Shown: positions 14,885 through 15,985 of the stretch, piece after piece
Layout of the letters: the number at the start of each line of letters is the position of its first letter
Numbering within the stretch: the first letter of the stretch is position 1
Assembly: GCA_016650295.1 (NCBI GenBank)
Contig: JAENWA010000068.1
Location: 62,001-126,000 of the forward strand
Direction: 5' to 3'
From: Desulfuromonadales bacterium
Lineage (GTDB): Bacteria; Desulfobacterota; Desulfuromonadia; Geobacterales; Pseudopelobacteraceae
Length of the DNA stretch: 64,000 nt
Translations under genes and position numbers: made by a program
Notes under the pieces: generated by a model
Told to the model about the DNA's origin: nothing
Database searches by the model: none
What the model saw: the letters and a program-made list of their open reading frames with translations, nothing else

Positions 14885-15154
14885 TCAGGCATTGCTGGTA
14901 TGCCTGTGACAGCCTCCGCATCGTCGCGGACCTTCCTGGTACAGGTCATGACAGTCTATGCAGTTCTTGTGTGCCCAGGTCTTGCCAAATCCTGCAATTT
15001 TTCCCGGTTTTTGCTCATGACACACAACACATTTTCCGACTTTATCCATTTTATGACTTTGATGATCGAATTCGACATTATGTTTAAATTCGATGACATC
15101 CGCGGCAAAGGCATTTTGGGTAAGCAGGGCTACTACAAGTAATACCTTCTTCAC
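14885..15154 (-). CDS. Small triheme c-type cytochrome (c7-like)
   Basis: Periplasmic electron carrier. Three heme-binding motifs occur in about 90 residues: CVVCH, CIDCH and CGGCH. The N-terminus, from a GTG at 15154, is a signal peptide (KKVLLVVALLTQNAFA) with an Ala-x-Ala cleavage site. The start is fixed by a GGGGAG ribosome site; the frame upstream of it is riboswitch RNA and not protein. Size and heme count match the c7/PpcA group, which shuttles electrons across the periplasm in Geobacter. The heme spacing looks compact, and I cannot assign it to a specific named cytochrome. It is controlled by the cyclic-dinucleotide riboswitch described separately. Confidence 0.92.
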   Translation of the reverse strand: MKKVLLVVALLTQNAFAADVIEFKHNVEFDHQSHKMDKVGKCVVCHEQKPGKIAGFGKTWAHKNCIDCHDLYQEGPRRCGGCHRHTSNA

Positions 15155-15203
15155 TACAACTCCCCTTCCATTGTGTGTAGTATTTTTACGGTCCCCGGCA
15201 CTG

Positions 15204-15256
15204 AAAAACAAAAAGCCCTTCTCTCGACAGGAGAGCAGGGCTTGGTAAAAAGCCCT
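15204..15256 (-). terminator. Riboswitch expression platform: terminator with competing antiterminator
   Basis: On the minus strand, three 7-base segments can pair alternatively: AGGGCTT (15250-15256), AAGCCCT (15237-15243) and AGGGCTT again (15213-15219). The second and third form a terminator stem, extended by a 5-base GAGAG/CTCTC inner stem and followed by TTTTTGTTTTT. The first and second form an antiterminator. The first segment also overlaps the closing end of aptamer stem P1, so ligand binding can decide which hairpin forms. This overlap predicts that stabilising P1 favours termination, but the polarity has not been tested. Confidence 0.85.
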
Positions 15257-15341
15257 CAATTGGGTAACCCGACTATCCTTGATACAAGGACTCGCGGCTT
15301 TGCGTCCCCGGATTACTCCGGGTTTGCCATTTTTCAATGAG
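15255..15341 (-). promoter_or_regulatory. GEMM-I cyclic-dinucleotide riboswitch aptamer
   Basis: The minus strand shows the conserved GEMM-I core: an outer stem CTCATTG/CAATTGAG, then GGCAAACC, a hairpin (CCGGAGTAATCCGG), the hallmark GGACGCAAAGCC, a second hairpin arm, and the tetraloop-receptor-like GGGTTACC closing segment. The order matches the known cyclic di-GMP riboswitch. In Geobacter some members of this class (GEMM-Ib) prefer 3',3'-cGAMP and often control cytochrome genes; here the downstream gene is a triheme cytochrome. Which ligand this copy binds cannot be settled by eye. Confidence 0.93.
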
Positions 15342-15346
15342 GTCAA

Positions 15347-15727: not shown

Positions 15728-15985
15728 ATGATTCATGATTATGCTAACAATCTTGCCGCTCAAATGGGAATACAGCTGTCAAAGGTGTCTGTAATCGAGG
15801 GCCAGTCGGTCGGGTGCCTGGATGTGTATCTTTTGCACATGTCCACCAAGGATCATTTGGTAAGCGCGCTGGTACACCGGACTGATTTTGAGAATTTACA
15901 CTGCGGGAATAACAGCGACAGACTGGAGTTGAAATTGCGGGTTGCCCTGTCGCGGCTTCAGGTTATGCTTGAATCAAAATATTAA
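15728..15985 (+). CDS. Small protein of unknown function
   Basis: An 85-residue protein starting MIHDYANNLAAQMGIQLSK; the ATG at 15728 follows a CGGGGG sequence. It appears to be a mixed alpha/beta protein, hydrophilic, without membrane segment, signal peptide or Cys motif. The C-terminal helix (RLELKLRVALSRLQVMLESKY) could mediate oligomerisation. I do not recognise the family. The gene stands alone, downstream of an inverted repeat. Confidence 0.65.
   Translation: MIHDYANNLAAQMGIQLSKVSVIEGQSVGCLDVYLLHMSTKDHLVSALVHRTDFENLHCGNNSDRLELKLRVALSRLQVMLESKY

Follow-up and report, generated by a model that had tools for sequence, protein, structure and literature searches.

A putative c-di-GMP class I OFF-type riboswitch ahead of a PpcA-family cytochrome gene in a Desulfuromonadales bacterium

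The window, the 64,000-nucleotide stretch of Desulfuromonadales DNA analysed here, contains an element that is probably a c-di-GMP class I (GEMM-I) riboswitch acting as a transcriptional OFF switch ahead of a triheme cytochrome gene. Judged from its sequence, it would represent a clean, interpretable c-di-GMP OFF-type riboswitch within a group known for cGAMP ON riboswitches. The whole feature lies on the minus strand, and its parts are listed in Table 1.

Table 1 Features of the riboswitch leader and the gene behind it (window positions)
Feature	Position	Strand	Basis
P1 5′ strand (P), CCUCAUUG	15335..15342	-	leader fold; CCUCU conserved in relatives
Aptamer core (P2, P3, three-way junction)	15259..15337	-	RF01051, RF03167, own covariance model
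G20, specificity base (G marks the c-di-GMP type, A the cGAMP type)	15328	-	alignment of the genome's 18 copies; role of base 20 from PMC6456294
C46, pairs with G21 (15327) at the P2 foot; the pair marks the separate-terminator lineage	15302	-	alignment
A47	15301	-	alignment
C92, predicted to form a Watson-Crick pair with one base of the ligand	15264	-	alignment; role from published structures (C75 of 4YAZ)
P1 3′ strand, CAA-U-UGAGG, one bulged U	15254..15262	-	leader fold
Segment A, AGGGCUU, 5′ side of the antiterminator; its first three bases also belong to P1	15250..15256	-	sequence, fold, comparative
Segment T, AAGCCCU, partner of A or H	15237..15243	-	fold, comparative
Terminator inner stem-loop, CUCUC-CUGUC-GAGAG	15221..15235	-	fold
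Segment H, AGGGCUU, terminator 3′ strand	15213..15219	-	fold, comparative
U-tract, UUUGUUUUU, U-runs broken by one G	15204..15212	-	sequence
Gene for an 89-aa PpcA-family triheme cytochrome c7, starting with GTG at 15154	14885..15154	-	ORF, motifs, homology

The complete GEMM-I (c-di-GMP-I) aptamer, including P1, spans 15342-15254. It matched the Rfam model RF01051 over its full length with 71.5 bits (cut-off 35), the top score among the 18 GEMM-I copies of the host genome, and its core scored 78.1 bits against our own covariance model. Membership of RF01051 is defined by a P2 GNRA loop with a P3 receptor and by a conserved junction; judged by sequence, the window copy carries the junction (GCAAA / GACGCAAAGCC) and a P2 loop of the GNRA type, GUAA. 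The model RF03167 (c-di-GMP-I-GGC) also matched completely (15337-15259, 62.3 bits, E 2.6e-12), above its family cut-off of 59 bits. However, its consensus has a G where the window has A47, and RF01051 gives more bits; the GGC label was therefore rejected, and it looks like a nearest-model choice rather than a sign of a variant pocket. Both Rfam scores bear out the original prediction of a complete GEMM-I aptamer core.

In the alignment, the window copy has the canonical pocket for c-di-GMP: G20, G21-C46, A47 and C92. Bases are numbered in the Vc2 register, in a placement that fits the positions published for the junction in 4YAZ, a structure of the cGAMP riboswitch. The bases that mark the GEMM-Ia (c-di-GMP) type, G20, A47 and C92, are thus all present, while the A20 of the GEMM-Ib (cGAMP) type is replaced by G. 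In Geobacter riboswitches, the choice of ligand, c-di-GMP or cGAMP, depends on base 20, and an A20G change shifts the Gmet_0970 copy from cGAMP to c-di-GMP (PMC6456294). Because G20 occurs together with G21-C46, A47 and C92, the ligand can be called as c-di-GMP type, and c-di-GMP is most likely the ligand of the window copy; inspection of the specificity nucleotide, proposed earlier as a check, thus gave the c-di-GMP base.

The host genome encodes 20 GGDEF domains: the canonical aspartate is present in 16 and a Hypr-type serine in two, and our pattern did not match the other two. A serine at that site is typical of Hypr GMP-AMP cyclases (PMC6456294). Since GGDEF domains of both kinds are present, both c-di-GMP and cGAMP signals are plausible in the host cell. 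The second Hypr-type domain (L241, G000:C114:50803-51270) has the serine at its base-recognition site; the pattern found no standard GGDEF motif there, and it may be comparable to GSU1937 (GGDDF).

Past the aptamer, the 7-mers A and H are direct copies of each other and T is the reverse complement of both; T and H correspond to segments B and C of the original prediction. The overlap of A with the end of P1, noticed from the outset, comprises the AGG at 15256-15254, which lies in the P1 3′ strand. The T:H hairpin folds with -17.8 kcal/mol and the A:T hairpin with -9.3 kcal/mol. When the 70 nt 3′ of the aptamer were shuffled 20,000 times with dinucleotides preserved, an exact 7-mer in the order X...rcX...X arose in 5 of the shuffled sequences. 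Taken by itself, the A:T energy differs only mildly from that of shuffles (z -1.65, near the shuffled range) and was not relied on, so the comparative evidence carries the weight. A mechanical terminator scan did not flag the T:H terminator of the window, whose stem contains a one-base internal loop and whose U-tract is interrupted. No promoter was identified for the riboswitch leader. The leader has the layout of a Cd1-like OFF platform: its intrinsic terminator lies apart from the aptamer, and one strand of its antiterminator also contributes to P1.

Partition functions calculated by transcript length gave P1 a probability of 0.85-0.89 until T emerges. At this point, without ligand, P1 fell from 0.85 to 0.01 and A:T rose to as much as 0.96, while with ligand, modelled as an assumed bonus of -8 kcal/mol on P1, P1 was kept at 0.97. 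Once H was out, T:H reached 0.93 with or without ligand. Because T:H wins at full length in both cases, the switch decision must be kinetic, and the control point in this model would be whether A still holds T while the polymerase crosses the U-tract.

We thus propose that, without ligand, A would abandon P1 as T leaves the polymerase and would form the A:T antiterminator; this pairing would presumably last long enough for the polymerase to pass the U-tract, and the ppc-like cytochrome would be made. Bound c-di-GMP would instead hold P1, leaving A unable to pair fully with T; the free T would pair with the emerging H and transcription would stop ahead of the gene. The predicted outcome is less of the triheme cytochrome at high c-di-GMP. 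Translational control appeared less likely because the terminator precedes the Shine-Dalgarno sequence. The folding covered the leader up to the U-tract.

The same design recurs in relatives. The leader of a ppc gene in an uncultured Geobacteraceae MAG (G036; locus L039, matching record L097) keeps this layout while A, T and H are all changed (GGGUU / AACCC / GGGUU), and its P1 reads CCUCU/AGAGG where the window has CCUCA/UGAGG, a compensatory change. In other genomes, the platform is also found ahead of unrelated genes. We examined 38 anchored copies, the ppc leader of G036 among them, at the position that follows GGG in A and H: a standard A:T pair is present in 37 of the 38 and a standard T:H pair likewise in 37; the triplets are C-G-C in 20 copies and U-A-U in seven, together with wobble forms. 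A permutation test on the A:T Watson-Crick pairs of these copies gave p 5e-5, in a calculation that ignores relatedness. When the 38 copies were folded, P1 formed before T in 37, A:T before H in 35 and T:H at the end in 33, counts that are descriptive, the copies having been selected by their A/T/H anchors. Folding, the complementarity of the 7-mers and the compensatory changes in relatives all agree with the mutually exclusive A:T antiterminator and T:H terminator originally read from the window.

An analogous but different pairing was seen in the genomes of family f3 (for example L079, L082, L084 and L087), which carry two or more G20 GEMM-I copies in tandem. There, A is AGAUGAG and T is CUCAUCU, and the tandem copies precede either short ORFs (about 53 aa) that resemble one another or secreted proteins.

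We compared 112 distinct GEMM-I copies from 10 genomes, the host and nine relatives. All 70 scorable copies with a C21-G46 pair (mostly A20) have the known ON design, in which terminator and aptamer 3′ strand overlap, whereas 31 of 39 copies with G21-C46 have a separate terminator, as in the window. The association between the P2-foot pair and terminator layout (Fisher p 4e-20) describes two lineages rather than 109 independent events, the copies being related. In some of the eight G21-C46 exceptions (L219, L220, L163), the A/T/H pattern can be made out by eye. Base 20 is less tightly linked to layout (p 2e-8). A rule in which base 20 alone sets the logic was rejected: the 11 copies that combine G20 with C21-G46 have overlapping terminators, and copies that combine A20 or C20 with G21-C46 have separate ones. 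Both lineages are present in eight of the 10 genomes; G050 has only G21 copies, and G003 has only two copies, both C21. In the host genome itself, the 11 C21-G46/A20 copies all have the ON design, which makes visible the contrast with activating Geobacter members that the original prediction had drawn.

We give about even chances to the generalization that Geobacter-type genomes hold two lineages of opposite logic told by the P2-foot pair, with C21-G46 copies (mostly A20, cGAMP) acting as ON switches and G21-C46 copies (mostly G20, c-di-GMP) as OFF switches, many of the latter through one conserved A/T/H platform and some of them with A20 or C20. If so, the A20 and C20 OFF copies would point to cGAMP-repressed genes and possibly to a third ligand preference. 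The C20 copies with the separate-terminator (OFF) layout are L119:426-503, L122:458-536, L110:458-539 and L116:144-228, and a further C20 copy, L076:1664-1750, has no recognisable terminator. In Cd1, the corresponding G to C change had no large effect (PMC9262584). The 11 overlap-type G20 copies with C21-G46 (L183, L188, L190, L192, L193, L195, L206, L210, L212, L214 and L216) are candidates for ON switching by c-di-GMP within these genomes.

Three other readings of the window element were weighed. If the aptamer were real and the antiterminator too weak, the leader would be a plain terminator-attenuator that stops transcription regardless of ligand, as might be expected from T:H being far stronger than A:T and the equilibrium winner in both ligand states. 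We hold this to be quite improbable: A, T and H co-vary across genes and genomes, a persistence that would be unlikely were A:T idle, and along the transcript A:T forms ahead of H. An ON switch, in which the ligand prevents termination, would match both the C21-G46 copies of the same genome and the known cGAMP copies of Geobacter, which activate (PMC6456294). However, the terminator of the window has no base in common with the aptamer, and P1 competes with the antiterminator only; ON logic was rejected on this ground and seems very improbable here. The OFF reading, with termination when the ligand stabilises P1 as first predicted, draws support from the overlap of A with P1, the exclusive pairings and the conserved design.

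It is also unlikely that the same OFF switch has 3′,3′-cGAMP, or both dinucleotides, as its physiological ligand. This reading gains from the majority of GEMM-I copies in the host genome being of the A20 cGAMP type, from the two host Hypr-type GGDEF domains with the GMP-AMP cyclase serine, and from reports that some Geobacter copies answer both dinucleotides (omcST, PMC6456294). We nevertheless downgraded cGAMP on account of the G20 with G21-C46 in the window copy, the A20 to G change being the one that moves a Geobacter riboswitch towards c-di-GMP (PMC6456294).

The gene under this predicted c-di-GMP control starts with a GTG codon behind a GGGGAG Shine-Dalgarno sequence. Its product has three CxxCH motifs and, by eye, a signal peptide, and the nearest solved proteins are cytochromes c7 of Geobacter, with 3h4n at E 1.1e-15 and the PpcA entries at about 1e-12. 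The three motifs and the homology to PpcA-E structures identify a PpcA-type c7, confirming the triheme cytochrome initially assigned; the score against the NCBIfam equivalog NF043011 was 87.6 bits, below its cut-off of 120. By these features the product is a PpcA-family periplasmic triheme cytochrome rather than a proven PpcA equivalent. Homologs at E 1e-12 or better were found in 95 of the 117 genomes searched, and such a riboswitch stood ahead of the ppc homolog in only one of 29 homologous loci scanned with Rfam, that of G036. Nearby, a small ORF on the plus strand (15728-15985, MIHDYANNLAAQMG...) had no Pfam match, and no GEMM-I riboswitch was found ahead of it; a similar protein in the relative G002 (L147) follows an A20 ON-type GEMM-I riboswitch.

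The window element belongs to a known riboswitch class; the analysis adds to this, modestly, a division between opposite logics inside individual genomes. In Geobacter, raised and lowered c-di-GMP are reported to affect different cytochrome genes with no established route (PMC12285248), which makes a direct link between riboswitch and cytochrome useful. The window element is a specific case, open to testing, of direct repression of an electron carrier in the periplasm by c-di-GMP, as predicted here, alongside activation of other genes of that cell by cGAMP. The P2-foot pair could also serve as a simple rule for predicting the control direction of many unstudied Geobacter riboswitches.

One of the closest known systems is the Cd1 c-di-GMP-I riboswitch of Clostridioides difficile, a measured transcriptional OFF switch with a P-A-T-H scheme (PMC9262584). 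Cd1 and the window element share the GEMM-I aptamer, the G at the specificity base and the P-A-T-H strands, and in both the T+H terminator can form while the aptamer is bound, its rival being an antiterminator in which A takes part. They differ in that Cd1 regulates flagellar genes and has an unrelated leader sequence. Moreover, the Cd1 antiterminator is built from T, A and H and unfolds part of the binding pocket, whereas A:T in the window takes P1 bases only. The pilM and pgcA cGAMP (GEMM-Ib) riboswitches of Geobacter are transcriptional ON switches (PMC9262584, PMC6456294). They have the aptamer fold and the bacterial group in common with the window element, and some also control cytochromes, but they carry A20 and, in the host-genome copies, C21-G46, and their terminator uses the aptamer 3′ strand, so that the ligand prevents termination. 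The pilM ON switch is the reverse of the scheme proposed for the window (PMC9262584).
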